Source: a virus
Reading direction: 5' to 3' (one strand)
DNA length: 20,336 nt
Virus record (IMG/VR): IMGVR_UViG_3300045995_000759
Span: 1 to 20,336 of that record
Within the stretch, counting starts at the first letter, position 1. Each line of letters starts with the position of its first letter. Shown piece by piece: positions 14 through 20,336 of the stretch. Under the pieces are notes generated by a model that was not told the origin of the DNA, did not search any database, and saw only the letters and a list, made by a program, of their open reading frames with translations. The position numbers and the translations under genes were made by a program.

Positions 14-2689
14 ATGAATAAAACTTCTAATTCAATTTATTTATATACTGGTAATAATAATAAAATAGAAACAATTGAAAAACTATTAATAAGCGGTAAT
101 TCTTATTTCAGTAAAATAACGTCATTACCAAGAGACATATTAAATCATAGATTTTATAATATTATTGATGTATGGGTAGATCAATTATCAAAACATGACA
201 ATGATATTGCCAATGATATTATTAATAGCAAATCAAAATTAGGTGCATTATTATATTTATCGAATTTTGGATATACATTAAGTCCTTTTAATAAATATCC
301 AAATAATTTAAACGAAACGATGTTTAATCTTTCAGCAGAAATTAATATTCCTATGTATTTACCCGCATATATCGGTGCATTGGTATATGCAATTGAAAGC
401 GGTGATACAAATTTTACGGAACAAAAAATAAAAGATTTTTTTACAATTGGTGCTGGAAAAACATTAGATAGTTCTGGTGTGTTTATTTTTGCAGATATTT
501 ATGATATTAAAAATTATTTATCTAAAAAAGATAAAGAAACATTTAAAACCGCATTTGATGAATTTTATTCTCATACATCACAATCAGTAAATTTTTTATA
601 TGATAATATATTTGCTGAAATTCAAAAATTATATAATAACATTAAAGATAAAACATCAATAGAAAAAGAAAAATTATATAGATCATATTTAAAACCAGAT
701 AATAATGAATACTATTCTAATATAATTCAACCATTAATTCAAAGAACAAATATTTTAAATTTAAGTGAAATAACCTTTGATATGAATCCAGTAGTTCCAA
801 CACACATTGGTTATCAATCATTAAAATCATTAAACGATAAAACAAATTTGAAAAACATTAATACTAATTATTTTACACAATTTTTTTCAAAATTACTTGT
901 AGAAATTACAACAGAAGAAAATAGAATAAAAGAACTTAAAAAAGAACAAGAAAAATCAGGAAATGATAAAGATATTGTAACAGAAACATATTATTCATTT
1001 AAAAACATTAATGATAAATGGCTTTCAAGTCCAAATTATACAAATATTGAAGGTTATCCATTTAACGAACCTAATAAAAGTTTAATCAATTCATTTGTTT
1101 TTGTCGATAGAGCAATGAATCCTATTGGCGATACAATACTTAATGCAGAATGTTTAATAGACATGTTTGATGATCCAAATGTTTCTGTATTTACCGCATT
1201 ATCACAATTATTATCATTAAATGGATTTGAATTTTTTCCTTTACAAAATTTTATGTCATATGGTGAAGGTGCTTGGAGAGACACATTTAAAATTGATACA
1301 AGTGGTAATATTAAATCAAGTCCAGCATATGTTTGTATGTATATTGGTGGAACATCAAGTTATCCATCAACAGGTGGTAATGGTTTTATTAATGATGGTA
1401 TCATTGATTTAAGTACTGCAGATTCAAAAGATTTTAATACTGTAAAACCAAATAAAAATGCTCTTTCTGATGATGAAAATGCATATCCTGAATTTCCTTT
1501 CAGACAAGTAAGGGCATTTAAAGTGAGATTTGGCGAACAAAATCAGTCAATGTTTACTGATATAAAAATTGAAAGTAAAGAATATCCTGATACAAATGAA
1601 TCAATTCAAATATTATCAAGATTAGCGGGTGATAATAATAATGTACCAGTACCAAAAGGTCAAAATTTATATAATTTATATGAAAACAGGGCATATAGAG
1701 CAACAATTACAGGATTAGGTAATGCAATGATTCAACCAACACAATATTTTCAATTGGAAAATGTACCTATTTTTAATGGTGCATACATTATATTATCAGT
1801 TGAACACACAATTGAACCAAATAAAATGATGACAAATTTTTCTGGAACTAAAATTTTAAGATATCCTGTTCCAAGAGTAGTTGATGCTGCATCAATTTAT
1901 GGTTTTGAAGGTTCAAGTGCTGGTGATGTTGTGTCACATGTTACACCGGGAACAACAGGAACTGGAACAGAAGCAATAACAATATCACAACCAAGATTAG
2001 AAAAATTGAAATCAGTTTTTGGTATTGATGTTTCTTATGCTCAAATTAATCTTAATTGGAATAAATACAAAGGCGATTCTACCGATCCCGGTTTCCCAAA
2101 TCCTAAATTTGTATTAATAAAAGTTAGTCAAGGAGATTTTGTTGATCCCGTAAGAATAAAAAATATTAATGGTGCAAAATCAATAAATTTAAAAATTGGT
2201 TACTATCATTATGCTGAACAATATGCCGATTCGAATGTTTCTGCGAATATTGTTGCTAACGCAACAGCACAAGCTCAATTTTTTATAAACACAGTAAAAG
2301 CATTACCAGTCCCTAATTTTCCGCTTATATTAGATATGGAAGATCGTGAAGAAAAAAATAAATATTGGTCAAAAATTAAGGATAATAATGATTTATGGAT
2401 CGATACATTTATTACTGAATTAAAAAAGAATGGATATAATACAATTCTTTATGCCAATCATAATTTTATTACCAATAAAATGAATGGTAATAAATTTGCT
2501 TCAATTCCATTATGGCATGCAAGATATTTATTACCACCACTTTCTCCAGAATCATATAATCCAAATCCTTCAAATGGATGGAAAGATTGGACTATTTGGC
2601 AATTTAGTAGTTCTAATAATCATCTTGATTTAAATATAATGAAAGAAAGTTTCTTTGAGTCAGCTAAACCATATTTAAATTCAACATAA
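14..2689 (+). CDS. Baseplate hub-like protein fused to a C-terminal GH25 lysozyme
   Basis: Probable tail-tip protein that cuts peptidoglycan during infection. Residues 1 to about 630 look like a baseplate hub; around 563-605 the segment with ITGLGNAMIQPTQYF and VPIFNGAYIILSVEH resembles gp27/gp5-type hubs of large myoviruses. A Gly/Thr/Ser-rich linker (about 632-660) leads to a glycoside hydrolase family 25 muramidase at about 668-891, with GIDVS (Asp672), KVSQGDF, GYYHYAE, the catalytic LDMED (Asp774, Glu776) and IWQFSSS near the end. All expected catalytic acids are present. T4 gp5 also carries a lysozyme, but of a different family and not at the C-terminus. The start is the first ATG in the window; no stop precedes it in frame, so the protein could begin further upstream. 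It converges with the next gene with a two-base gap and no visible terminator. Confidence 0.85.
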   Translation: MNKTSNSIYLYTGNNNKIETIEKLLISGNSYFSKITSLPRDILNHRFYNIIDVWVDQLSKHDNDIANDIINSKSKLGALLYLSNFGYTLSPFNKYPNNLNETMFNLSAEINIPMYLPAYIGALVYAIESGDTNFTEQKIKDFFTIGAGKTLDSSGVFIFADIYDIKNYLSKKDKETFKTAFDEFYSHTSQSVNFLYDNIFAEIQKLYNNIKDKTSIEKEKLYRSYLKPDNNEYYSNIIQPLIQRTNILNLSEITFDMNPVVPTHIGYQSLKSLNDKTNLKNINTNYFTQFFSKLLVEITTEENRIKELKKEQEKSGNDKDIVTETYYSFKNINDKWLSSPNYTNIEGYPFNEPNKSLINSFVFVDRAMNPIGDTILNAECLIDMFDDPNVSVFTALSQLLSLNGFEFFPLQNFMSYGEGAWRDTFKIDTSGNIKSSPAYVCMYIGGTSSYPSTGGNGFINDGIIDLSTADSKDFNTVKPNKNALSDDENAYPEFPFRQVRAFKVRFGEQNQSMFTDIKIESKEYPDTNESIQILSRLAGDNNNVPVPKGQNLYNLYENRAYRATITGLGNAMIQPTQYFQLENVPIFNGAYIILSVEHTIEPNKMMTNFSGTKILRYPVPRVVDAASIYGFEGSSAGDVVSHVTPGTTGTGTEAITISQPRLEKLKSVFGIDVSYAQINLNWNKYKGDSTDPGFPNPKFVLIKVSQGDFVDPVRIKNINGAKSINLKIGYYHYAEQYADSNVSANIVANATAQAQFFINTVKALPVPNFPLILDMEDREEKNKYWSKIKDNNDLWIDTFITELKKNGYNTILYANHNFITNKMNGNKFASIPLWHARYLLPPLSPESYNPNPSNGWKDWTIWQFSSSNNHLDLNIMKESFFESAKPYLNST

Positions 2690-3471: not shown

Positions 3472-3486
3472 TTTATTATAAATACT
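3472..3486 (-). promoter_or_regulatory. Late-promoter-like motif for the gene at 2692-3462
   Basis: Reads AGTATTTATAATAAA on the minus strand, the best match to the shared motif. It fills the gap between the portal stop codon (3488) and the ATG at 3462. The identical sequence stands before the gene at 7797-8285. Confidence 0.6.
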
Positions 3487-3487
3487 A

Positions 3488-5512
3488 TTATGATTCAGTT
3501 AATTCTATATTTTCAATATCATCAATTACAATATCTTCTGTTTCATTAATTTCTCGTTGAGCGTTGATACTTTCACTACCTTCCAATAAAACATTAATTT
3601 CATCAATCATATTTTGAGCATTTTTATTTAAATTTGTATTAATTTTATCATTTTCATTAATTGCTTCTTTATGACCATTTTTCTTTTTAACTTCAGGTTT
3701 GGCAGTATCACCATATACTAATTTTTCAACATGTGTATTATATTCTTTTTCAGTTAATCGAGATTTGTTTTCAGCCATTGGTGGTAATCCACCAGCAGCA
3801 GGAGCACCACCAGCAGGAGCACCACCAGCAGGAGGCATTCCACCACCAGCAGGAGCACCACCAGCAGGAGGCATTCCACCAGCACCACCAGCAGGTGGAG
3901 CACCACCTCCTTCAGTTGCACCACTTTGTGCACCCAATAATGCTGCTTCAGGTTCACCAAATCTATTATCAATATCAGTAAATAAACCTGATTTTTTAAT
4001 AACAACTGGAGAATCTTGAAGTTCTTGCATGACAACTTTTTCCATTTTTTGTTGTTTCAAGTCATCAACAATTTCTTTATCACTCATATTAAATATACTT
4101 CTTTTAGCATTTGTATGTGACATTGCAGCAATACCGCCTTCAGCACGAGTTAATTCAGTATATGTTTGTGCTTTATCACGCATTAATTCAGATTTTTGTA
4201 ATTCAGCCTGTGTTGATGGATTTGTAAGTGTTAATGTAAAACTACTTAAATCTTCACCACTATAACCCAATAAATATAAATGTACCATTGCCATTTTATT
4301 GAGTTCCTGAATCATTGACTGTTGAATACGATTTATTTTTTTAGAAAATCTGATATCATATTGTGCCATTGTTTTTCCAGCACCCGCAGCATCCTGAAAT
4401 GATAAAAAAGGTTTCGGAATTCCAAGTCCAATAAAAAGATTATCACGAAGATACTCTATATCATGAATTTGATCCAAATTCGATGCTCCGGGTAATGTTT
4501 CAATACCAGTTTGAGTATTTGCATTTCTTACTGGTAAAAAATAATCTTCATCATTGCCAAGAATATTAAAACGATAATCGATTTGTCCGTCATTTGGTGC
4601 TATTTGTGCAGTTTTTTTAAACTTGGTAGCAACTTTGTAGATATATTCTTCAATATCATCTTCATCAATATTTCCAACATCAATTTTAAACACTTTTTTC
4701 TCACCTGCACGAATAATACGATATGTTAACATAGCATCTTCTGCCATAACAAGTTGTCTGAAAACTCTACGCACTTTATTTAAAACAGATGATCCATAAG
4801 GAAGATATTTATCATCTCCCAAAAGTCTGAAATGTGCAATTTCAAATACGTTAAATTCATCACCTGTCATTCTTTCTTTAAATTTCACAAGTGGTTTACC
4901 GTTTTGAATTCTTTCAAATCTTTCAATTTCGTAATTAACTAATTGTTTAATGTGAGTAATACCTTTTTTTCTTTCACCATATATAAGTACGAAATTATCA
5001 CCATATTTTGTTGTATTTCTTACCCAAAATGGTAAGTTAACATTTACATTGACAATATCATAAAAAAATTCTTCTAATAATGTTTTTATTCTTTCTTTAT
5101 TTGAATATATATTTAGCATTTTACCATTCATGCCAATTGTAGTTGATTCTTCCATTAATAGGTCTAATGCGCTTGAAATAATGGGGTAATATTCCATGCC
5201 TTCATAATCTATGTATGCAGGTAATCTGGCTGCTTCATATTGAAGTGCTTTTTGGAATCCTCTATCAGTAGTTCTGAAGAATTTATTTTGAAGGTCTCTT
5301 TTTTGTTGTAACTCCAAACCCTTTTTTTGTATTTCTTCAGGAGTATTACCTTTAATAATAACTTTATTTTCTTTTGCGGGAGTACTTGCAGATATAATTG
5401 TTGGTTGTTTTTCTGGTGAATCAAAACCACCAAGATTTAAGAACTGATTTAATTGTTGATATACAGTTCCTCTTTTTTCTTTATCACTTCCTGTTTTTTC
5501 GTTGTCAGCCAT
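3488..5512 (-). CDS. Portal protein, T4 gp20-like
   Basis: Dodecameric vertex protein through which DNA enters the head and to which the tail attaches. The 674-residue protein has gp20-type stretches: a region with LPYGSSVL followed by RRVFRQLVMAEDAM, then TYRIIRAGEKKVFKIDVGN, and later EYLRDNLFIGLGIP with a helix rich in Gln and Met. T4 gp20 is somewhat shorter (about 520 residues); the excess is mostly a disordered tail after about residue 510. Residues about 536-577 form a Gly/Pro/Ala repeat (units such as MPPAGGAPAGG), followed by a charged C-terminus. It lies 72 bases downstream of the terminase stop. The ATG at 5512 follows a motif copy and an A/T-only leader. Confident from the fold-specific blocks and the terminase neighbour. 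Confidence 0.88.
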   Translation of the reverse strand: MADNEKTGSDKEKRGTVYQQLNQFLNLGGFDSPEKQPTIISASTPAKENKVIIKGNTPEEIQKKGLELQQKRDLQNKFFRTTDRGFQKALQYEAARLPAYIDYEGMEYYPIISSALDLLMEESTTIGMNGKMLNIYSNKERIKTLLEEFFYDIVNVNVNLPFWVRNTTKYGDNFVLIYGERKKGITHIKQLVNYEIERFERIQNGKPLVKFKERMTGDEFNVFEIAHFRLLGDDKYLPYGSSVLNKVRRVFRQLVMAEDAMLTYRIIRAGEKKVFKIDVGNIDEDDIEEYIYKVATKFKKTAQIAPNDGQIDYRFNILGNDEDYFLPVRNANTQTGIETLPGASNLDQIHDIEYLRDNLFIGLGIPKPFLSFQDAAGAGKTMAQYDIRFSKKINRIQQSMIQELNKMAMVHLYLLGYSGEDLSSFTLTLTNPSTQAELQKSELMRDKAQTYTELTRAEGGIAAMSHTNAKRSIFNMSDKEIVDDLKQQKMEKVVMQELQDSPVVIKKSGLFTDIDNRFGEPEAALLGAQSGATEGGGAPPAGGAGGMPPAGGAPAGGGMPPAGGAPAGGAPAAGGLPPMAENKSRLTEKEYNTHVEKLVYGDTAKPEVKKKNGHKEAINENDKINTNLNKNAQNMIDEINVLLEGSESINAQREINETEDIVIDDIENIELTES
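3788..3904 (-). repeat. Tandem Gly/Pro/Ala-coding repeats in the portal C-terminus
   Basis: Degenerate tandem units built on CCACCAGCAGGAGCA and GGAGGCATTCCACCA (plus-strand reading) encode PPAGGAPAGG-type repeats at about residues 536-577. The patch is much more GC-rich than its surroundings. Such repeats can change in copy number by slippage. Confidence 0.8.
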
Positions 5513-5529
5513 TTTATAAAATTTTATAT

Positions 5530-5544
5530 TTTTTTATAAATACT
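5530..5544 (-). promoter_or_regulatory. Late-promoter-like motif for the portal gene
   Basis: Reads AGTATTTATAAAAAA on the minus strand, 17 bases before the portal ATG at 5512. Confidence 0.55.
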
Positions 5545-5584: not shown

Positions 5585-7669
5585 TTAACTTCTCTTTTTT
5601 CCATCTATACCATTAAACAACCACTTATTTATTAAATATGGATTCAGTGGTGATACACTATTAGGTGAAATCATTGGTTTATATGTTTTTGTATTACCAC
5701 TATTCATTCTTTTTCCAATTTCATTCATTGTATTATTAGTAATAATTGCATTAAGCATTTTTTCAGTGATGCCTTTACTTTGTTTATATCTTACCATATC
5801 ATAATTAAGTACATATAATCCAATTGATAGTCCCATAACAGAATCATCATGAAATGAACGTTTATGATCAGCAACACGATTACCGGGAACAGTAACAAAT
5901 GTTTTTAATTCGTTTAATAATCTGACAGACCTGATTATAATATCTTCCAAATGAATTGCTCTTTGTAATTCAAGAAGAACTGAAGCACGATTACTGCCAA
6001 TATAAAATCCGGGGATTAAATCCACATTAATAACAGTACCATCATTCATTGTTTTTTGTCCTTTTTTAATATATCCCTGTAATCTATCTCTTGATGGTTT
6101 ATGTGTTACTTCAGCATAATGAACATTTTCATAACCAAATTCCAGCATTTTTTCAACACTTTGTACACCATAACCACCAGTAATATCTATAACACAATAT
6201 GAATTATTATATTTTTTTCCATATTGATATGCTATTTCGGCAAGCATTTGTGGTACTATTTTACCATAATATTCAGCAACTTGTTCAATTTTATGCCTTC
6301 TTATTTTAACTTTTTTAATTTTACCGTTTTTATTTATTATTTTTTCTTCAATAACTTCAACAGTTTTTAAAATATTTATTGTTGAAAAATCTTCACCATG
6401 TCCGGGTGAAGCATCTAATCCCATAATATAATCCTCACCCGCAATTGGGTCTTCAAAAATCCACATATTTTTATCAACAAATTCTTGACGAATCGGAACT
6501 TTTACTTCATTATCTTGAATACGTTTTAAATATTCTTCAGCAATAAAATTATCACCTGATCCAAGGAAACTACATAATAATTCCTGTGCAATTTTACGCA
6601 TATCACCGTTTGCATTACGAACTTGTTCTTCGAACCAAGGTGAACTGGCTTCCCAACCATCAGCCATCATATTCATTTTTTTATTTTCATCCCAATTATC
6701 GGGAGTTATACTAATTTCAGTTTCTTTTCCTTTATTTTTTAACCATACCAAATCTTTATTATAACGAGGATCATTAAACCACCATAATTCAACAGGAACA
6801 AAATTATTTTCTTGATTTTTTGCACCCATAAATGTTTTATAAAAAACAGCGTCTAAACCACTTGGTGTACTTACCATTATGGTTGCACCACCAGTTTGCA
6901 TTGTTGGTTGTGCTGATGTCCAGAAATTATCACCTTTTTCTGTCCAAGCAGTTTCATCCCAAAATAATAATGTTGGTGTATAACCACGAAGTCCCTTTGA
7001 TGAAAAAGCACCTAATGATGAATTATTATTATATCTTTTTAATTTTTGGGTATCTTTAAAATTTCTTTTTTCAGTATCTCTACCAGTTTTCGGTCTTAAC
7101 CAATCAGGACAATTATCAATAAAATCAACAACATCATTCATTAATTCATCACGAGCAATTTCCAATTTATCTGCAACAATTGCCACACTTCTATTCGGAT
7201 TAAACATTACGTACCAAGAAATAAAAGCACAAGTTGCAGTTGATACACCCGCCTGACGATATTTATTTACAATAACAAATCTTTCATCCAAATAAGTTTT
7301 TATTAAATTTCTTTGAATATCAAATAATAAGAACGGTACTATTTGACCTGCTTTACCTTTTGTTTGGTCGAATACTGTTAAATAAGTTTCAATAAAATAT
7401 ATTGGATTTGTAGCACAACGAACAATTTCATCTTCTTGTTCAAAAACGGTTAATTCACTTGTTTTTTTTGATTTACCTTCTTTAGTAATAACAATTGTTT
7501 CACGTCTACCATATTTTTTTCTAAGTTCCTTTGCAATTCTTCTCGTTTCTTCTTTTTCTCTTTCTTTTTGTACATCAAGAGGTACAACGGGAATATGTTC
7601 TGGAGCTTCTTCTTCTATTTTTTCAAATTTTTCTTTTTCTTTTTCTTCGTCAGACAAATATCTTCTCAT
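5585..7669 (-). CDS. Terminase large subunit (DNA packaging ATPase/nuclease)
   Basis: Motor that pumps DNA into the prohead and cuts the concatemer. In the 694-residue protein the ATPase motifs are a deviant Walker A, KYRQAGVST (136-144), Walker B LLFWDE (D238, E239) and coupling motif STPSG (267-271). The C-terminal RNase H-like nuclease has its acidic residues at D419 (MGLDASPG), D494 (CVIDITGG) and D608/D609 (FHDDSVMG). The first ~75 residues are a highly charged extension. Length is usual for T4-like TerL (T4 gp17 is 610). The canonical Walker A lysine is replaced by valine, as in other terminases where a lysine at the N-terminal end of the loop takes over. It lies upstream of the portal gene. 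No small subunit gene is recognisable nearby. Confidence 0.93.
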   Translation of the reverse strand: MRRYLSDEEKEKEKFEKIEEEAPEHIPVVPLDVQKEREKEETRRIAKELRKKYGRRETIVITKEGKSKKTSELTVFEQEDEIVRCATNPIYFIETYLTVFDQTKGKAGQIVPFLLFDIQRNLIKTYLDERFVIVNKYRQAGVSTATCAFISWYVMFNPNRSVAIVADKLEIARDELMNDVVDFIDNCPDWLRPKTGRDTEKRNFKDTQKLKRYNNNSSLGAFSSKGLRGYTPTLLFWDETAWTEKGDNFWTSAQPTMQTGGATIMVSTPSGLDAVFYKTFMGAKNQENNFVPVELWWFNDPRYNKDLVWLKNKGKETEISITPDNWDENKKMNMMADGWEASSPWFEEQVRNANGDMRKIAQELLCSFLGSGDNFIAEEYLKRIQDNEVKVPIRQEFVDKNMWIFEDPIAGEDYIMGLDASPGHGEDFSTINILKTVEVIEEKIINKNGKIKKVKIRRHKIEQVAEYYGKIVPQMLAEIAYQYGKKYNNSYCVIDITGGYGVQSVEKMLEFGYENVHYAEVTHKPSRDRLQGYIKKGQKTMNDGTVINVDLIPGFYIGSNRASVLLELQRAIHLEDIIIRSVRLLNELKTFVTVPGNRVADHKRSFHDDSVMGLSIGLYVLNYDMVRYKQSKGITEKMLNAIITNNTMNEIGKRMNSGNTKTYKPMISPNSVSPLNPYLINKWLFNGIDGKKRS

Positions 7670-8293: not shown

Positions 8294-8308
8294 TTTATTA
8301 TAAATACT
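8294..8308 (-). promoter_or_regulatory. Late-promoter-like motif for the gene at 7797-8285
   Basis: Reads AGTATTTATAATAAA on the minus strand, identical to the copy at 3472-3486, with an 8-base gap to the ATG. Confidence 0.6.
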
Positions 8309-11939: not shown

Positions 11940-11954
11940 TTTTTTATAAATACT
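11940..11954 (-). promoter_or_regulatory. Late-promoter-like motif for the large acidic protein gene
   Basis: Reads AGTATTTATAAAAAA on the minus strand, as at the portal gene. It lies 36 bases before the ATG at 11903, the longest motif-to-start distance among the directly served genes. Confidence 0.5.
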
Positions 11955-13041: not shown

Positions 13042-14064
13042 TTAATTAAGATATGCAGTTAATTCATATTTACCACTATCCATTCTGTAAATTGCAATTG
13101 TAACACTTCTTCTTTTATCTGGAATACCATTTCTTAATAAAGGAATTGTTGCTCTTTTGGTTTCACCATAATTAATACCACCAGTTCCAAACTGAGTAAA
13201 CATATCATCTTCATCAACAGTAAATCCTTTTTTTTCAACCCTTTCTCTTACAGCATCTAATGCTGCTGATAATGTTTCAAAATATGTATCATTTTGAGGT
13301 TTTCCAGCAAATTCATTCATTCCTGTTTCAGAATTCTTCTCTTTTGGAGAAAATTTTGTCATGATATTATCAATTTTGTTAATAGTATCATAATTATTAT
13401 TATCAAACAAAAAATTAACTTTTTCTTTAATTAATTCTGCTTTTTTCTGATATTCCTGTGTATTATCTTCATTAACATTTTGAGATAACCCAATTTTTTT
13501 TGTTTTATTAATTAATAATCTATATAAAGTATCTAATACATCAAATTCTTGTTTATTAAATAAATCATCAATTGCATTTTTTATTTTATCCACTTTAATT
13601 CTTTCTTCTTCTGGATTATTAACATTACTTAAATTAAGTTCTTCATCAATACCTTTTTTAAATCTTTTAGCCAATGCTTTCCTTGCAGGTGTACAAGTTG
13701 ATTTGGTCATTGGAGTACAATAACCTTTATGCTTTGGATTTACGGCTTTTTGAATCCATTTATCATCTTCATTCATTCCAGATTTTCCAAGAAGACTTTT
13801 TACTTCATCCCAAGGATTATTCGCATATTTCATTGCATATTGTTCTGCGATATTATCTGGAATTCCGAGCTTAACAAGCATTTTATATCTTATATGAAAA
13901 GCACCGTTTGACCATGCATCGTTAGCATCTTTAAAAATTTGTCCTGTTCTTTCGTGAAAAGAATCATGAAAATTGCCAATGCCTTCTTTTAATTTGAAAT
14001 CTGGATTTAATTTAACCATATTTTCAAAAAGAAGCAATTTTGTATCTTTTTGTAATTTTTTCAT
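13042..14064 (-). CDS. LFE-tagged protein with KWIQKA motif and conserved C-terminal domain
   Basis: The 340-residue protein has three parts. Residues about 9-24 are the shared N-terminal tag (LLLFENMVKLNPDFK). Residues 102-138 are a basic motif starting KWIQKAVNPKHKG with two TCTP-like cysteine turns (C116, C124) and ending in a Lys/Arg cluster; such KWIQKA motifs recur in structural proteins of large phages as I recall, without assigned function. Residues about 250-340 form a compact domain (ALDAVRERVEKKGFTVDEDD, FGTGGINYG, then VTIAIYRMDSGKYELTAYLN), which I recall only as a conserved phage domain of unknown role. Packaging into the head is an inference from the tag. It is 24 bases after the charged-protein gene and three before the nucleotidyltransferase gene. 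Confidence 0.8.
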   Translation of the reverse strand: MKKLQKDTKLLLFENMVKLNPDFKLKEGIGNFHDSFHERTGQIFKDANDAWSNGAFHIRYKMLVKLGIPDNIAEQYAMKYANNPWDEVKSLLGKSGMNEDDKWIQKAVNPKHKGYCTPMTKSTCTPARKALAKRFKKGIDEELNLSNVNNPEEERIKVDKIKNAIDDLFNKQEFDVLDTLYRLLINKTKKIGLSQNVNEDNTQEYQKKAELIKEKVNFLFDNNNYDTINKIDNIMTKFSPKEKNSETGMNEFAGKPQNDTYFETLSAALDAVRERVEKKGFTVDEDDMFTQFGTGGINYGETKRATIPLLRNGIPDKRRSVTIAIYRMDSGKYELTAYLN

Positions 14065-14088
14065 AAATCACAATATTAAAAAATCAAT

Positions 14089-14451
14089 TTATTTTTTACC
14101 AACTTTTGCTTTGTCCCATTGTGTAACGGGTACTTTAGTTTTAGGTTTGGCAGTGTCTTCTTCTTTTAATTCTTCTTTATCTTCATGCTCTTCTTTTTCT
14201 TCTTCAGGAGTTTCAGAATCTTCATGTTCTTTAGATTCTTTATCTTCCTTTTTTTCGAAGTTCCATTTCTTTTTTCCAGAAGTTTCTTTTTTATCTTTTT
14301 TATCTTCTTTATCGTCATCATCTTTATCTTCACCTTTTTTCTTATCAAAATTCCATTCTGTAAGAAGTTCAGCTTTAGGTTTAAATGTTTTATCGAGTTT
14401 GCTCATGACTTCGAAAAGTCTTGCCCTGTTGTCATTATTGTCTTTTTTCAT
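14089..14451 (-). CDS. LFE-tagged, highly charged disordered protein
   Basis: The 120-residue protein begins with the shared tag at 11-25 (RLFEVMSKLDKTFKP). The rest is almost entirely Lys, Glu and Asp and must be disordered. Two copies of WNF(D/E)KK (about residues 33-38 and 61-66) and a late VTQWDKAK are the only non-charged landmarks. Composition resembles internal head proteins or nucleic-acid condensing peptides carried in phage capsids, though no homology can be claimed. Two overlapping frames are also open here because of the low-complexity sequence; this frame is chosen for its promoter motif, ATG and the tag shared with neighbours. It heads the run of genes down to 11981. Confidence 0.75.
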   Translation of the reverse strand: MKKDNNDNRARLFEVMSKLDKTFKPKAELLTEWNFDKKKGEDKDDDDKEDKKDKKETSGKKKWNFEKKEDKESKEHEDSETPEEEKEEHEDKEELKEEDTAKPKTKVPVTQWDKAKVGKK

Positions 14452-14466
14452 AATCTTGATTATTAA

Positions 14467-14481
14467 TTTTATATAAATAGT
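14467..14481 (-). promoter_or_regulatory. Variant promoter-like motif for the 14451-11981 gene run
   Basis: Reads ACTATTTATATAAAA on the minus strand, one mismatch in the core. It starts just after the stop codon of the GP88-like gene and lies 15 bases before the ATG at 14451. The next three genes have no motif, so it may serve all four. Confidence 0.45.
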
Positions 14482-14482
14482 T

Positions 14483-15607
14483 TTAATGTTGTAATAAAAA
14501 CGTTCTTTTTACATCTTTTCTTTGTGCAGCAACATCACCTTCGCCTTTTGGCATTATAATAACATTCAAATTTCTTTCACCACCAACAGGTATTTTTAAC
14601 ATTTCATCATATGTTAATAATGTTTTAATGTCAACGCCAAATTTGTCTGAAATTCTTTGTTTTAAAGTAGTAATGCTATTATTAGCAATCGGTATTAATT
14701 TACCATTATCATCAACTTTTAAATGCATTTTATCTTTAACGAACAAATCTTTAAATAACGTAGTAGGTACAATTTCAGATGTTTTTGCGGTAGATAAATC
14801 TATTTTACTTTTTTCTTTTTCGTTTGCATTAGTAGAAAAATTTAATGTCATATTGGGATTGTTTAAATTATAAACATCTCCTATTTTAGTATGAGCATAT
14901 GATTCAAAATTATAACCATTATTTTTCAATTCTTTTGTTATTTTTACTGCAATTTCAAAATATTTTTTTGTAAAAAAATCTCCAGCGTCATTCCATCTGA
15001 ATATTATTTTCTTATCTTCGTTTTTATTTGCCAACATCTCTAATTCATGTTTTAATATTTTTTCGAATTTATCTGGATAGTTAAGTAATAAATTTAATAT
15101 TCTTGTTTGTTTAACAAAAATATTTGGTTGAATAACATATCTTCCACGTCTTGCATAACAAACTTTTGCACATGCACCAGCACCGGGACAAGTATTAACA
15201 ATATAAAATTCCTTATTTTCAATATCATAAACCAATCCTTGTAAAGCTGGAATACCAATATTAAAAGTTATTGAATCTTCCGATCCAGATTTTTCCATTT
15301 TTGTATTTTGACTGTAAATTTGTGGTGGATTTTTTGTTATATCATTAATAAATGTATCAACATCAATTTCACCATTTTCATCAAATGGAATTGCTTTATT
15401 ATGCACTAATAATGTTGATTTTGTTCTTTTATTTTGAGCTAATTCGTAATTTAAAAGTATTTTATTAAAATATTTTTTTAGTTCTTCAGTACTAATACAT
15501 TCTTTTGATACATCACTAAAATCACCCTCCCAATCAACTTCGTCTAATGACATACCAGTAACTTTGTTCATCATTTCAAAAAGCTGTTGTTTGGTATTTC
15601 TAATCAT
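14483..15607 (-). CDS. GP88-like cysteine-motif protein with LFE tag
   Basis: A 374-residue protein. The core resembles the phage GP88 family (named for a mycobacteriophage gene product): CPGAGACAKVCYARRGRY has cysteines at 140, 146 and 150, then a FRWNDAGDFFTKKYFEIA block (about 203-220) and SYAHTKIGD. The cysteine cluster suggests a metal or Fe-S site; the biochemical activity of the family is not known to me. An ATG at 15625 would add six residues, but it lies inside the promoter motif at 15618-15632 and would probably not be transcribed. The ATG at 15607 leaves a 10-base gap and places the shared tag (QLFEMM) at the same distance from the start as in the other tagged proteins. Transcribed divergently from the tail-protein gene at 15681. 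Confidence 0.82.
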   Translation of the reverse strand: MIRNTKQQLFEMMNKVTGMSLDEVDWEGDFSDVSKECISTEELKKYFNKILLNYELAQNKRTKSTLLVHNKAIPFDENGEIDVDTFINDITKNPPQIYSQNTKMEKSGSEDSITFNIGIPALQGLVYDIENKEFYIVNTCPGAGACAKVCYARRGRYVIQPNIFVKQTRILNLLLNYPDKFEKILKHELEMLANKNEDKKIIFRWNDAGDFFTKKYFEIAVKITKELKNNGYNFESYAHTKIGDVYNLNNPNMTLNFSTNANEKEKSKIDLSTAKTSEIVPTTLFKDLFVKDKMHLKVDDNGKLIPIANNSITTLKQRISDKFGVDIKTLLTYDEMLKIPVGGERNLNVIIMPKGEGDVAAQRKDVKRTFLLQH

Positions 15608-15617
15608 TTGTAAATCA

Positions 15618-15632
15618 TTTTTCATAAATACT
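15618..15632 (-). promoter_or_regulatory. Late-promoter-like motif for the GP88-like gene
   Basis: Reads AGTATTTATGAAAAA on the minus strand. The ATG contained in it (15625) is in frame with the gene, but ATGs at the same place in other motif copies are not in frame with theirs, so it is probably incidental. Confidence 0.55.
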
Positions 15633-15653
15633 CAATTATATTCAATTTCAATT

Positions 15654-15668
15654 AGTATTTATTATAAA
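15654..15668 (+). promoter_or_regulatory. Late-promoter-like motif for the tail/surface protein gene
   Basis: Reads AGTATTTATTATAAA on the plus strand, 12 bases before the ATG at 15681. With 15618-15632 it forms a divergent promoter pair 21 bases apart. Confidence 0.6.
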
Positions 15669-15680
15669 ATCTTGTAGAAA

Positions 15681-17765
15681 ATGAATTTAGAATGCCTTAA
15701 TGATATAATCACAGATAATTTAGCAATATATATTGACATAACAAACATTAAATCATGGAATTTAAATACAGGTTTTACATCTGTTAGTTTAACTAAATGG
15801 AGTGGTGCTTTTTCAGATAACATAAATTTAATGGATTTTGGGTTAACAGCTTTTGATAATGGAAGAACCAATATTATGTGGAGTGGAATTACATTAACAC
15901 CGCAAGATGCTTATTTATCAATGTATAGAGTTGGTTATAATAATATTATAAATCCAACAACGGGAGAAACAAGTGGGGTTACTGCAACAACACAATATGA
16001 TATATATCCAATGAGTGCTGTTACATTAACATCTGGTACAACTGGAAATTATTTTGAATTAAATGGTGGTTATTTACAAGGATTTTTTAAATTAAAAGAT
16101 TATAATTATTCAATATTTTCATCACGATATAACGGTATTACAATTGAAACATTGCTATATCTTCATCCAGATTCTCATGGTATTTTCTTTATGATGGGTG
16201 CACGTGCGGAAGATAAATATAATTCATATTTTTCTGGTGAAACAATAACAGGTGTTACAACAACTGGTGTTGTGACAAGTCTGGACAATCATTTAGAAGC
16301 ACTTACAAAAACTGAAGTACTAAAAAGTGGTTTTATTAATTTTGAAGATAGATTTAGAACAGATTATATTGAAGAACCTGCAATTAATAATATTAATAAT
16401 AATGTAATTGCATTTGAAATAACAGAAGATAAAAGAATTGTATATAAATATGTTGATAATAAAGGACATGTTATAACAAACACATCATCAATTGTTATTA
16501 ACGGAACAGGTTTTACAATGATTGACATTACATATTTGCCAAATAATATTATTTTAGACCCAATATCTTTAGATTGTTCATTACAAAGAACAGGTAAATT
16601 AATTATATATGTCAATGGTCGTGCTGTTTGGATAATTTATGATTTTCCAGAATTTTATTTTAAATCATTTAATAATGATAAAGAAAAACAATTGGGTGTT
16701 CCATATTCAATAAGTTGGGGTGGTGGTTCGTTTGGATTAAAACATTCGTGGCATTATGATTATCAAACATACATAATTTATAATGGTCAAGATTCTAATT
16801 ATGTTAAGAGCAAATTTTTTGTTCAAGGCAATCCAATTTCAACTGAATGTATTTCTGCCAATGACAATTATTTAGCTGGTTTATCGTTAAGTGCCGATAC
16901 AACCACATTTGTACTCAAAGACAAATGTGATTCTCTTATTGATGTTCCATATACAATAATGCGTATTGATTATACTGGTGAAACAAGCACAACAACAGGC
17001 AAAACATATTTTATAAAATTCAACCAACCAGTTTCTGTATTATCAAACAGAGATTATGAAATAGATTTATCAATATTTGATGGAGGATTTTTTAAAAATG
17101 TTGATATTAATAGTAATACAATAACAAATAAAATTTCTTTATTGGTTTATAGTGACACTGTTGATGTTAATATTATTAATGATATTGAATATAGATATCC
17201 AATAAGTGCATCATATCTTTCAGAATTAGCAAATCTTGGTTTATATCCATTTCCAGACAGACAAGAATATCAATATCTTAGAAATGGTATTATGTATTAT
17301 GGAGCAACAGGTTTTCCTGTAATTAGTGATGAATTTTCATATCTATATATTTATGATTTCAATAATATGTTGTTACATCAAACAATACGTGGTGCAATTG
17401 TAACAGGTCAAAATGGTTGGAAACCATTAAAAACCGTTTTTAGAATTCCTGATAATATTGGTCAACAATTTGTAAATATTGGTTTGTTAATTGAAACCGA
17501 TGATTCATTTAATTTAAATAAACCTTTATTTGTAACAAATTTTACATATACTGCTGCAGATATTTTAGTACAAGATGCAAGAAAAGATAATTTAACTATT
17601 GAACAGAATTTTAATAATTCTTTTATTGGTGGAATTCAAAAATTAAGAATTTATGATAAAGCATTAACATATTCTGAAATTATTCATAATGTTTCAATAG
17701 AAGCAAAAAATTATCCCGCATTAAATTTAAGTGTAAGTAAAGGTGGAAGAATCATATATAGATAA
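15681..17765 (+). CDS. Large tail or virion-surface protein with LamG-like C-terminus
   Basis: The 694-residue protein is rich in Asn, Thr, Ile and Tyr, strongly beta-type, without signal peptide or membrane segment. Near its end, IGGIQKLRIYDKALTYSEIIHN (about 658-679) resembles the last strands of concanavalin/LamG-like jelly rolls, which bind glycans in tail and surface proteins. A central part (about 310-365; GKLIIYVNGRAVWIIYDF, GGGSFGLKH) has the same jelly-roll character. A tail or receptor-binding role fits composition and phage context, but no specific family was recognised. The downstream zinc-ribbon gene starts inside its last codons, so both are probably on one transcript from the motif at 15654. 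Confidence 0.75.
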   Translation: MNLECLNDIITDNLAIYIDITNIKSWNLNTGFTSVSLTKWSGAFSDNINLMDFGLTAFDNGRTNIMWSGITLTPQDAYLSMYRVGYNNIINPTTGETSGVTATTQYDIYPMSAVTLTSGTTGNYFELNGGYLQGFFKLKDYNYSIFSSRYNGITIETLLYLHPDSHGIFFMMGARAEDKYNSYFSGETITGVTTTGVVTSLDNHLEALTKTEVLKSGFINFEDRFRTDYIEEPAINNINNNVIAFEITEDKRIVYKYVDNKGHVITNTSSIVINGTGFTMIDITYLPNNIILDPISLDCSLQRTGKLIIYVNGRAVWIIYDFPEFYFKSFNNDKEKQLGVPYSISWGGGSFGLKHSWHYDYQTYIIYNGQDSNYVKSKFFVQGNPISTECISANDNYLAGLSLSADTTTFVLKDKCDSLIDVPYTIMRIDYTGETSTTTGKTYFIKFNQPVSVLSNRDYEIDLSIFDGGFFKNVDINSNTITNKISLLVYSDTVDVNIINDIEYRYPISASYLSELANLGLYPFPDRQEYQYLRNGIMYYGATGFPVISDEFSYLYIYDFNNMLLHQTIRGAIVTGQNGWKPLKTVFRIPDNIGQQFVNIGLLIETDDSFNLNKPLFVTNFTYTAADILVQDARKDNLTIEQNFNNSFIGGIQKLRIYDKALTYSEIIHNVSIEAKNYPALNLSVSKGGRIIYR

Positions 17766-17976
17766 AATCGATGTTTTATTAGAAATTTATGAAGGTTGGA
17801 AAAATTTTGCGTTTCCAAGTCCAAAAGTAGAAGAATTAGCTACAAGAAGAATTGCAATTTGTGTTAAAAATAATTGTGGAAAATTTCAAACAAATAAATT
17901 TTGTTCATTATGCGGATGTTACATGCCCGCAAAAACAAGAAATCCTAAGTCTCATTGTAGACTAAAAAAATGGTAA
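17743..17976 (+). CDS. Small zinc-ribbon-like phage protein
   Basis: The 77-residue protein has an N-terminal helix (IYEGWKNFAFPS) and then a cysteine-rich part: RIAIC-VKNNC (C40, C45), FCSLCGC (C54, C57, C59), MPAKTR and a final C72 before the terminal KKW. The pattern C-x4-C-x8-C-x2-C-G-C fits a small zinc ribbon of a type seen in many large phages; partner and role are unknown. No ATG is available in frame: the start is a GTG at 17743, overlapping the end of the tail-protein gene by 23 bases. It ends exactly where the convergent gene at 17977 ends. Confidence 0.75.
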   Translation: MEESYIDKIDVLLEIYEGWKNFAFPSPKVEELATRRIAICVKNNCGKFQTNKFCSLCGCYMPAKTRNPKSHCRLKKW

Positions 17977-18594
17977 TTAGCAATACGGTACATTTCGAAC
18001 ATTAACGTTTGAATCAGGTGTTCTAATTTCTACACTTGTATATGCTCTAATATAACTTTCAGTATATTCTCTGATAAATAACATTTTTATTTTTGGCGGT
18101 GCTTTTTTAAATGCTAAAAAATCAATTTCATCACCTTCTTTAGTATTTAAAGTTGCGTTAATATCGCTCCAATCAAATTCATTAAACCATTCATTACCTG
18201 ATGGTGCAATATCGCTATCGGTTGTACCACCAAGTCTTCCTTTATCATAATCATCACGTTTGCTTATGGTAATACCATCACTATAAAAATCTAATCCAAA
18301 TTTAAGTGCATCTTTATTCTGATCATATTTATATTCAACATTAAGAAAATATTCAAGAGTAAGTTTTGAAGCATCTTCCGTATCGTTTTCCCAATTACCA
18401 CCAATATTTGATTCAGAAATAGTAGTTTTAATTTTATTTTTATTTAAAAGTGAATCACAAATAAATTGTTTTTGAAAATCTTCATTTTTCAATAAATCAA
18501 CAATTTCTTGTTCTTTTGAATATTTTTCATTACCCAAAAAATCAAATTCTGAAATCTCTTCATTAATGATTTTTATAAAATCTTTATTTCCCAT
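17977..18594 (-). CDS. Hypothetical phage protein, 205 residues
   Basis: Not assignable to a named family. The N-terminal 60 residues are a charged helical part (EQEIVDLLKNEDFQKQFICD); the remainder is beta-rich and acidic (LTLEYFLNVEYKYDQ, LKFGLDFYSDGITIS) and ends in a basic-aromatic strand segment (YIRAYTSVEIRTPDSNVNVR). There is no membrane segment. The ATG at 18594 follows the promoter motif by 9 bases. Its stop codon directly abuts the stop of the zinc-ribbon gene on the other strand, with no terminator between them. Confidence 0.78.
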   Translation of the reverse strand: MGNKDFIKIINEEISEFDFLGNEKYSKEQEIVDLLKNEDFQKQFICDSLLNKNKIKTTISESNIGGNWENDTEDASKLTLEYFLNVEYKYDQNKDALKFGLDFYSDGITISKRDDYDKGRLGGTTDSDIAPSGNEWFNEFDWSDINATLNTKEGDEIDFLAFKKAPPKIKMLFIREYTESYIRAYTSVEIRTPDSNVNVRNVPYC

Positions 18595-18603
18595 TGATTT
18601 GAA

Positions 18604-18618
18604 TTTAACATAAATACT
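18604..18618 (-). promoter_or_regulatory. Late-promoter-like motif for the gene at 17977-18594
   Basis: Reads AGTATTTATGTTAAA on the minus strand, 9 bases from the ATG at 18594. The ATG contained in the motif is not in frame with this gene. Confidence 0.55.
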
Positions 18619-18658
18619 AAAAATTTTATATAAATGATAATAAAATTTACAATTTCAA

Positions 18659-18673
18659 AGTATTTATGTATGA
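18659..18673 (+). promoter_or_regulatory. Late-promoter-like motif for a predicted small RNA
   Basis: Reads AGTATTTATGTATGA on the plus strand. No plus-strand gene follows before the terminator at 18791, apart from a doubtful 27-codon frame (18670-18753). Confidence 0.5.
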
Positions 18674-18829
18674 AAAATCATTGCTTAATTATTTATATTA
18701 AGTTAGGTCTGGTTAAAGTCAGGAATGATTTTAGAATTTTAATCGCCAAATAGTGGTTATGTAAAATTTTAATCCTTGACTGAACTTTATAATAATTGCA
18801 CCATTTTAATCTGGTGCAATTATTTTTTT
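18674..18829 (+). ncRNA. Predicted structured small RNA with own promoter and terminator
   Basis: About 155 bases between a promoter motif and a strong terminator. Three foldable parts follow each other. A short hairpin pairs CTTAAT (18684-18689) with ATTAAG (18697-18702). A long imperfect hairpin runs from 18717 to 18781: AGTCAGGA (18717-18724) pairs with TCCTTGACT (18773-18781) with one bulge, and its upper part pairs 18735-18748 with 18754-18768 (one mismatch, one bulge, one G-U) around loop AATAG. The terminator hairpin comes last. A 27-codon frame starting 18670 is possible but has no recognisable product and overlaps the stems. Function unknown; it does not resemble a tRNA. Predicted from sequence alone. 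Confidence 0.5.
18791..18829 (+). terminator. Intrinsic terminator of the predicted small RNA
   Basis: A perfect 13-pair stem, AATAATTGCACCA (18791-18803) with TGGTGCAATTATT (18812-18824), an 8-base loop and a T run to 18829. The other strand has no T run after the hairpin (ATAAAG), so it terminates plus-strand transcription. Its tail overlaps the stop codon of the minus-strand aminomutase gene. Confidence 0.85.
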
Positions 18830-20030
18830 ATATCGGATATTCATATTCTTTATCCAAATAATTGGTTAAAATAATCTTATCGTCTTTTATTTCTTTTACA
18901 TAATTTGGTAAAAGTGGAATTTTACCACCACCACCGGGAGCATCAATTACATAGTATGGTACAGCATATCCCGATGTAAATCCTCTAAGTCCTTTCATAA
19001 TTTCTAATCCTTTTGAAATTGGTGTTTCAAAATGATTTCCACCCAAAATTTTATCCATTTGATAAATATAATATGGCTTTACTCTGATAGTTAGTAAAAG
19101 ACGATTTAGTTTTTTAAATATTTCAACATCATCATTAATTCCTTTTAAAAGCACACTCTGTGAACCTAATGGTATTCCAGCATCAGCTAACATATTACAT
19201 GCTTTTTGTGTTTCTGGAGTAAGTTCATCAGGATGCGTAAAATGTATACTTATATATAAAGGATGATATTTTTTTAATATATTTATTAATTCTGTTGTTA
19301 TTCGCATAGGTAATACAACAGGAACTTTAGTTCCAATACGTATTATTTCCACATGTTCAATACTTCGTAATCTTTTTAAAATATACTCAATTTGATCATC
19401 TCTTAAAGTAAGCGGATCACCACCCGAAATAATGACATCTCTGATATTTTTATTATTTTCAATATATTTAAAACCTTTTTCCCATTCATTTTGTGTGGCA
19501 ATAATATGATTTTCTTTTGAAACTAAATGACTTCTCGTACAAAATCTGCAATAGGTACTACAGAAATTAGTTACTAAAAATAATGCTCTATCAGGATATC
19601 TATGCACAATATTTGGTACAGGTGAATTTTTTTGTTCATCAAGCGGATCGTCTTGTTCTCCTTTAATTGAAATTAATTCATCAACTGTTGGAATTATAGT
19701 TTTATAAAGAACATGATCGTTTGGAAGTATATTTAAAAGATAAGCAAAATAAGGCGTTATTCTAAATGGTAAATGATTTTTTGGCATATTGATAATTGTA
19801 CCGTTTTTTTTCTTTCCCAATAACTTAATTAATTTTTCGGTACTGGTTATACTGTTTTTTATTTGCCATATCCAATTATTCCAATCTTCAATGGATGTTC
19901 CAGTATAATTTTCTTCAATGAAATTCTTTAGTTTAATATTTATTGGCAAGGATGAGTCCTTGCCCCCCGCAGGAGGTAAATCAGAGTCTTCTGATTCGAT
20001 TTGAATTGATTGTAAAATCCGTTCGTTCAT
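18828..20030 (-). CDS. kamA: Lysine 2,3-aminomutase-like radical SAM enzyme
   Basis: Members convert L-lysine to L-beta-lysine with S-adenosylmethionine, a [4Fe-4S] cluster and PLP. The 400-residue protein matches the family throughout. DWNNWIWQIKNSI (49-61) is the family N-terminus, SPVPNIVHRYPDRALF the entry to the barrel, C157-x3-C161-x2-C164 the radical SAM cluster, SGGDPL (202-207) the SAM contact, and PGGGGK (365-370) holds the PLP lysine K370. D326 and D363 match the two aspartates that bind the substrate amino group in the clostridial enzyme (D293, D330), favouring lysine over glutamate. Residues 1 to ~38 are an extension with a GC-rich hairpin patch at 19945-19978. In a phage this would be an auxiliary metabolic gene; beta-lysine can serve as osmolyte, in fermentation or in EF-P modification. 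The exact substrate is unproven. Confidence 0.9.
   Translation of the reverse strand: MNERILQSIQIESEDSDLPPAGGKDSSLPINIKLKNFIEENYTGTSIEDWNNWIWQIKNSITSTEKLIKLLGKKKNGTIINMPKNHLPFRITPYFAYLLNILPNDHVLYKTIIPTVDELISIKGEQDDPLDEQKNSPVPNIVHRYPDRALFLVTNFCSTYCRFCTRSHLVSKENHIIATQNEWEKGFKYIENNKNIRDVIISGGDPLTLRDDQIEYILKRLRSIEHVEIIRIGTKVPVVLPMRITTELINILKKYHPLYISIHFTHPDELTPETQKACNMLADAGIPLGSQSVLLKGINDDVEIFKKLNRLLLTIRVKPYYIYQMDKILGGNHFETPISKGLEIMKGLRGFTSGYAVPYYVIDAPGGGGKIPLLPNYVKEIKDDKIILTNYLDKEYEYPI
19945..19978 (-). repeat. GC-rich palindrome inside the aminomutase 5' coding region
   Basis: GGCAAGGATGAGTCCTTGCC is an 8-pair stem with a 4-base loop, followed by CCCCGCAGGAGG. In a very AT-rich gene this codes LPPAGGKDSSLP with codons rare around it (GCG, GGG, GGC, GAC, TCC). 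It lies in the non-conserved N-terminal extension, before the family fold starts, and may be an inserted palindromic repeat that kept the frame open. Confidence 0.5.
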
Positions 20031-20041
20031 TTAAAAATTTA

Positions 20042-20056
20042 TTTCATATAAATATA
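20042..20056 (-). promoter_or_regulatory. Weak variant promoter-like motif for the aminomutase gene
   Basis: Reads TATATTTATATGAAA on the minus strand, 11 bases before the ATG at 20030. Two core mismatches make it the poorest copy, and AT-richness could explain it. Confidence 0.3.
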
Positions 20057-20130
20057 AGAAAAACATAAAAAAGTCGAACAAATATATATCTTTTTTTAAT
20101 AAAAACAAATAATAAAATTTTTATTTTTTT

Positions 20131-20140
20131 GAACATGTTC
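20131..20140. promoter_or_regulatory. Perfect 10-base palindrome in a divergent intergenic region
   Basis: GAACATGTTC stands between the divergent genes at 20030 and 20215 and could be a binding site for a dimeric regulator. The rest of this 184-base gap is A/T runs and two promoter-like motifs. Confidence 0.25.
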
Positions 20141-20190
20141 TTTCATACATAATTATAAAAAAATAATAATTGTTTTTTAAATATATTTAT

Positions 20191-20205
20191 AGTATTTATG
20201 ATAAA
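20191..20205 (+). promoter_or_regulatory. Late-promoter-like motif for the gene starting at 20215
   Basis: Reads AGTATTTATGATAAA on the plus strand, 9 bases before the ATG at 20215. Confidence 0.55.
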
Positions 20206-20214
20206 ATTATTATT

Positions 20215-20336
20215 ATGAAAGATAATAAACAAAGACTTTTCGAAGTCATGGAAAGAGTTGTTCCAAATTTTAAACAACCAGAAAAAGAAAATTTAAAAGA
20301 AATAGCACCTGTTGCTGCTACCAGTACTGCAACACA
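20215..20336 (+). CDS. Start of an LFE-tagged protein (3' end outside window)
   Basis: Only 40 codons are visible. The product begins MKDNKQRLFEVMERVVPNFK, an unmistakable copy of the N-terminal tag seen in the proteins starting at 14451, 14064 and 15607, followed by a Lys/Glu stretch (ENLKEIAPVAA) with a second LxE tripeptide. The body of the protein lies beyond the window, so its function cannot be judged. The start is fixed by the promoter motif 9 bases upstream and by alignment of the tag. It is on the opposite strand from the other tagged genes and far from them, so the tag is not simply the product of a local tandem duplication. Confidence 0.75.
   Translation, partial: MKDNKQRLFEVMERVVPNFKQPEKENLKEIAPVAATSTAT

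Follow-up and report, generated by a model that had tools for sequence, protein, structure and literature searches.

Four tagged genes on a T4-like phage contig

We analyzed the IMG/VR virus record IMGVR_UViG_3300045995_000759 over its full length (20,336 bases, 28% G+C; hereafter, the window), focusing on four genes whose otherwise unrelated products share an N-terminal sequence that we term the LFE tag. The first-pass annotation of this DNA had placed such tags at 14451, 15607, 14064 and 20215, and all four were found there, the first three on the minus strand and the last on the plus strand. The tagged genes, with predicted cut positions, and the two T4-like genes of the window are as follows:

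13042-14064, minus strand: tagged KWIQKA protein, 340 residues; C-terminal domain recurs in L069:18577-19608
13984-14064, minus strand: its tag, MKKLQKDTKLLLFENMVKLNPDFKLKE; cut predicted after LKE (KLKE)
14089-14451, minus strand: tagged low-complexity K/E-rich protein, 120 residues; relatives in the WNFDKKKGEDK family tagged too
14356-14451, minus strand: tag of this acidic/lysine-rich protein, MKKDNNDNRARLFEVMSKLDKTFKPKAELLTE; cut predicted after LLTE
14483-15607, minus strand: GP88-family protein (PF17338, E 2.3e-21)
15539-15607, minus strand: its tag, MIRNTKQQLFEMMNKVTGMSLDE; cut predicted after SLDE
20215-20301, plus strand: tag MKDNKQRLFEVMERVVPNFKQPEKENLKE of a protein truncated by the contig end; cut predicted after LKE (NLKE)
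3488-5512, minus strand: T4-like portal protein gp20 (PF07230, E 3.9e-63)
5585-7669, minus strand: T4-like large terminase, the query used to fetch relatives

The portal places the record among T4-like phages. No near match to the window was present among 50,697 phage records, and the terminase search retrieved 18 viral contigs at 54-80% identity together with four distant contigs. Fifteen terminase-relative records were searched and read, the largest of 246,768 bases. T4-like markers comprised the gp20-type portal and gp17-type terminase in the window, and a gp23-type capsid protein and an S77 (gp21-type) prohead protease in the relatives.

The tag profile scored the window proteins at E ~1e-7. 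The GP88-family protein reached 77.1 bits, against a Pfam gathering cut-off of 24.4 (PF17338), with a conserved C-x5-C-x3-C motif, and the tag was kept in 14 of 14 aligned relatives. The first ATG chosen by the open reading frame (ORF) caller, 15625, falls inside a promoter-like element (15623-15632, see below), so that 15607, which matches the Met at which most relatives begin, is the likelier start. In an AlphaFold2 model with 14 GP88 relatives in the alignment (mean predicted local distance difference test, pLDDT, of 84), the confident fold began at about residue 31, and the tag formed a lone helix outside it (residues 11-23, counted from the 15625 start; pLDDT<50). The model is thus as might be expected for a removable extension, low confidence alone proving little. 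Foldseek returned no match to the GP88 fold below E 0.001, only weak barrel-like ones.

Anatomy, spread, and cargo of the LFE tag

The tag followed the consensus M-x(4-8)-KQRLFE[VM]Mx[KR][VL][DN]xxF-x(1-6)-[LI](N/K/T)E, with LFE usually 8 residues past the first Met. When 130 tags were aligned on LFE, information content ran at about 1-5 bits per position up to +17, being high through +11 and at background beyond +18. Conserved positions past LFE included M+4, [KR]+6, [VLI]+7, and F+11 (F in 100 of the 130), and positions +15, +16, and +17 each held about 1 bit (L in 54, N in 57, and E in 56 tags). Conservation past +7 is independent of the search by which tags were collected, since the search pattern spanned only -2 to +7.

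Conservation ended at a second [LI]xE tripeptide, 12-20 residues after LFE. It was present within +10 to +20 in 128 of 161 tagged proteins; weighted by body family, [LI]xE occurred in 69% of tags versus 11% of windows taken further downstream in these proteins (Wilcoxon p 1.5e-6), and [LI]NE in 42% versus 0.5%. Furthermore, in seven divergent tags found via their bodies, FLE replaces LFE, which breaks the T4 protease rule, while [LI]NE was kept in all seven. The first-pass annotation had proposed cleavage at LFE. Because conservation runs on to the second tripeptide and the FLE variants keep [LI]NE, the predicted cut likely falls after the second [LI]xE instead, and that part of the proposal was not borne out.

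A search of viral_contigs with a degenerate DNA pattern encoding QRLFE[VIM]Mx[KR] returned 94 stretches, many with two or three tags. Together with the relatives, these yielded 161 distinct tagged N-termini from dozens of phage records, far more than the four copies noted at first. The bodies behind them clustered into 41 groups, corresponding to about 37 families, given that several singletons represent one low-complexity K/E protein. Hence, the earlier claim of one modular tag on unrelated proteins held well beyond the window. The tag profile found 2-11 tagged genes in each of 19 large records (19 of 19), and every match above 10 bits was N-terminal (1,586 ORFs, 16 records); a match at residue 60 of one ORF reflects a start called too early. 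When the first 45 residues of 911 proteins were compared all against all, with pairs of related bodies ignored, the tag ranked first, with 36 members from 27 body families (some of them spurious links), and signal peptides came next.

In bacterial and archaeal genomes (257 gigabases), 19 matches to the DNA pattern were found versus about 30 expected by chance; only two of these proved to be tags at an N-terminus, and a single Bacteroidota bin, which also has S77 genes, contained both. Together with the window scores and the N-terminal ranking, this shows that the tag is no chance resemblance. A tblastn search of the 26-residue tag consensus against the 50,697 phage records gave no match, and the detected proteins in the half of the genome of Pseudomonas phage PA5oct that was read (mass-spectrometry notes) had no such LFE tag. 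No paper containing the string RLFEVM was found in the open-licence literature.

Proteins behind the tag included GP88 (PF17338), AAA_33 kinases related to phage polynucleotide kinases, a cupin, DUF5661, DUF3293, and DUF4313 members, and an HExxH protein weakly matching a phage metallo-protease family; most belonged to no recognized family. Two tagged proteins (L083:9505-9975 and L154:7855-8319) share a YLHTT...NAxSIC.NG pattern reminiscent of ADP-ribosyltransferases such as T4 Alt. A search for relatives of the former found only itself, and there was no Pfam match, leaving this likeness without Pfam support.

Homologous bodies were found with different N-termini. In L069:18577-19608, the KWIQKA C-terminal domain stands behind a different N-terminus, EQIDRMKHISKYRLKE; there are also kinases and a GP88-like protein that lack the LFE tag; and one body follows LRKFIATTIREYLNE in L064:16054 and IVDIIKEEI in L107:2330. 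A second recurrent type, [IVL]x[KE]IINEEI, was carried by 14 proteins of nine body families in the fetched loci and is represented in the window:

17977-18594, minus strand: protein with the IINEEI-type N-terminus MGNKDFIKIINEEISEF, its gene preceded by a promoter-like element (18609-18618)

Candidate leader types in these phages included LFE, IINEEI, LRKFI..LNE, and EQIxRMK..LNE, and each holds [LI]NE or [LI]KE. Separately, in Flavobacterium phage immuto (MW353176), four proteins (1803-2318, 103762-104310, 117587-118588, and 118588-118887), two of which adjoin the terminase gene, carry a leader of their own, MENFDLKKFLVENKLTTNSK[LI].E. No report of this leader was found in the open-licence literature.

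Among tags within one locus, codon identity at shared residues was 0.62, close to the 0.59 expected from codon usage, and therefore selection acts on the peptide, whose synonymous sites drift. GTC was over-used at V+3 (49 of 85, versus a 5% background) and CTT at L0; the GTC excess is a sign that an ancestral sequence was copied. A DNA-level element in place of a peptide was rejected, since synonymous codons drift except for GTC at V+3 and CTT at L0.

Head-maturation genes and late-promoter-like elements

The window is a fragment without an S77 gene, and the relatives carry one. S77 proteases scored above the cut-off in 13 of the 15 terminase relatives and in 19 of 22 tag-bearing records, so that the absence of a prohead protease, a possibility raised with the first-pass annotation, is ruled out for the relatives. 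Among 16 tag-bearing records in which gp23 was sought, 14 had it, and all of these but one also had S77. The exception is a contig that ends just past the gp23 gene, where S77 would lie, and both records without gp23 were also without S77. The S77 gene was often interrupted in frame by an intein-like insert of ~400 residues that begins with C, ends with HN, and is placed after an EADHPD motif (e.g., G006:C1:93591-95498 and G008:C1:16787-18685; other open frames measured 598-653 residues).

Based on the T4 rule L/I-x-E (PMC9026906), maturation sites were predicted in the clade's capsid protein, which reads CAQLFENQLSYMINE|STDSAS (MINE|S), and in its protease (LVTE|S and ILTE|S); these are of the same tripeptide class as the second site of the tag. 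Derivation of the tag from the capsid propeptide (QLFENQLSYMINE), whose LFEN bears a striking resemblance to the tag, was considered and rejected, as 56 of 500 shuffled propeptides scored as high, and therefore we do not claim a common origin for the two.

Many tagged genes, as well as those for portal, sheath, and tube, were preceded by the element AGTATTTAT(A/G), typically 15-35 bases ahead of the start codon. Copies in the window are as follows:

3477-3486, minus strand: AGTATTTATA, ahead of the gene after the portal gene
5535-5544, minus strand: (AGTATTTATA/G), ahead of the portal gene
8299-8308 and 11945-11954, minus strand: further copies of (AGTATTTATA/G)
14472-14481, minus strand: ACTATTTATA, one mismatch, ahead of 14451
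15623-15632, minus strand: AGTATTTATG, exact, ahead of the GP88 gene (15607)
18609-18618, minus strand: (AGTATTTATA/G), exact, ahead of 18594
20191-20200, plus strand: AGTATTTATG, exact, ahead of 20215

With one mismatch allowed, the whole window held 18 copies versus 11.5 by chance, a modest excess. Genes were sorted into classes by their similarity to those of annotated phage immuto and to head and tail proteins from the clade itself. The element lay within 100 bases upstream of 79 of 160 tagged genes, 30 of 62 structural genes, and one of 16 replication/nucleotide genes (one of the 16, G012:24795, being a misassigned tagged gene), and on the opposite strand for 22 of the 160 tagged genes. 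The p-value for tagged versus replication genes (9e-4) is a guide only, because the tagged genes include related copies and are not independent. The element also preceded nine of the 14 genes of the IINEEI type. We interpret it as a putative late promoter; reverse-complemented, its core TATTTATA gives the T4 late-promoter core TATAAATA.

A candidate capsid-targeting propeptide and its alternatives

The tag is probably a modular capsid-targeting propeptide, analogous to the leader of T4 internal proteins and removed after the second [LI]xE. In such a scheme, the short N-terminal helix KQRLFExMx[KR][VL] would attach to the scaffold or inner core as the prohead assembles, and any protein bearing the tag would be trapped inside. 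The S77 protease would cut after the Glu of the second [LI]xE (usually LNE or LKE, at about residue 22-32) in head maturation, and the freed mature protein in the head would be ejected along with the DNA. The first-pass annotation had likewise read the tag as capsid targeting, and that kind of function fits the modular tag, the T4-type protease, and the late-gene-like control, although not the cut site it had assigned.

Several points weigh against this interpretation. Core binding, cleavage, virion location, and ejection are steps that we infer, and the tag exceeds the 10-19 residues of T4 leaders. About a fifth of the tagged proteins had no [LI]xE at +10 to +20, some having V/M variants in its place and many kinase-type members none. 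Because LFE matches the cut rule as well, tags may be cut twice. The likeness of the tag to the capsid propeptide was not significant against shuffles.

Alternatively, the tag could dock proteins onto a different structure or compartment of the phage (the tail, a replication factory, or a membrane) and stay in place, with the second [LI]xE being only part of the docking peptide. In favor of docking are the ~20% of tags lacking a clean second [LI]xE and some enzyme-like cargo (AAA_33 kinase, cupin, HExxH) that could act late in infection, and the virion location of tagged proteins is in any case inferred. However, docking leaves aside that conservation ends at a tripeptide matching the prohead protease rule, that other, unrelated N-terminal types of these phages likewise hold [LI]NE or [LI]KE, and that an S77 gene accompanies the head genes wherever these are present, and we regard it as unlikely. 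Capsid targeting with a cut after LFE appears highly improbable: LFE does fit L/I-x-E at about residues 9-11, like the T4 IPIII cut, but conservation to +17 on unrelated bodies would be unexplained if those residues belonged to the mature proteins, and the seven FLE tags all keep [LI]NE. We give similarly little credence to the shared 5′ ends being recombination leftovers, in which a promoter and start region were copied before different genes and the peptide has no function. The common promoter-like element ahead of many tags and the trace of a common DNA origin in the GTC codons at V+3 would agree with such copying, yet the near-expected codon identity indicates conservation of the peptide despite drift at synonymous sites, and the hydrophobic core and the LNE at the end persist in many genomes.

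Returning to the capsid-targeting propeptide, its closest counterpart is the leader of T4 internal proteins IPI, IPII, and IPIII, which is 10-19 residues long, targets the prohead core, and is cut by gp21, with ten residues of IPIII sufficing (PMC9026906). This leader is all that T-even internal proteins have in common; many of their genes were found through it, and three proteins found in this way inhibit restriction enzymes (PMC12373910). Like the tag, the T4 leader is a short N-terminal sequence on otherwise unrelated small proteins, ends in L/I-x-E, and goes with an S77/gp21-type protease (PMC9026906, PMC12373910). The tag resembles it in every feature tested here, although the tag is 22-32 residues long, has many more cargo families, is only presumed to be targeted and processed, and has no evident likeness by eye to T4 MKTYQEFIAE. 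T4 Alt, too, is an enzyme packaged in the head, with a short propeptide that gp21 cuts (PMC9026906), whereas tagged cargo mostly has other folds (GP88, AAA_33/polynucleotide kinase-like kinase, cupin, HExxH, and many unknown). The gp23 propeptide is predicted to end in [LI]xE in the clade (MINE|S), as in T4 (LTE|A), but is much longer, and its likeness to the tag is without statistical support. The immuto leader provides a parallel from a T4-like phage that has been cultivated and encodes a prohead protease, in that one leader, mostly ending in [LI]xE, stands on four otherwise different proteins; its sequence differs from the tag and its function is equally conjectural.

It is possible, and we propose it tentatively, that the several unrelated leaders form a general, swappable N-terminal packaging code that loads dozens of enzymes and anti-host proteins into one head, with bodies traded among them. 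If so, N-termini would reveal the complete set of proteins injected by an uncultivated phage group. As for the LFE tag itself, its probable role in loading proteins for delivery to the host would make injected proteins of these uncultivated T4-like phages recognizable by sequence alone. Injected proteins of large T4-like phages are mostly unknown because internal proteins share no fold, and a recognizable leader gives a list of ~40 candidate injected families, including GP88, polynucleotide-kinase-type kinases, and the HExxH protein. Because T4 proteins found through their leader inhibit restriction enzymes (PMC12373910), the tagged proteins are also candidate counter-defence proteins for the hosts of these phages. 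Those hosts are probably Bacteroidota, and the sole genomic copies of the tag came from the Bacteroidota bin.

Two further genes of the window were noted. An 891-residue protein (14-2689, plus strand) has a GH25 lysozyme domain at its end and a long N-terminal part of unrecognized kind. The other (18828-20030, minus strand) encodes a radical SAM protein resembling lysine 2,3-aminomutase (PF12544, PF04055), here on a phage contig.

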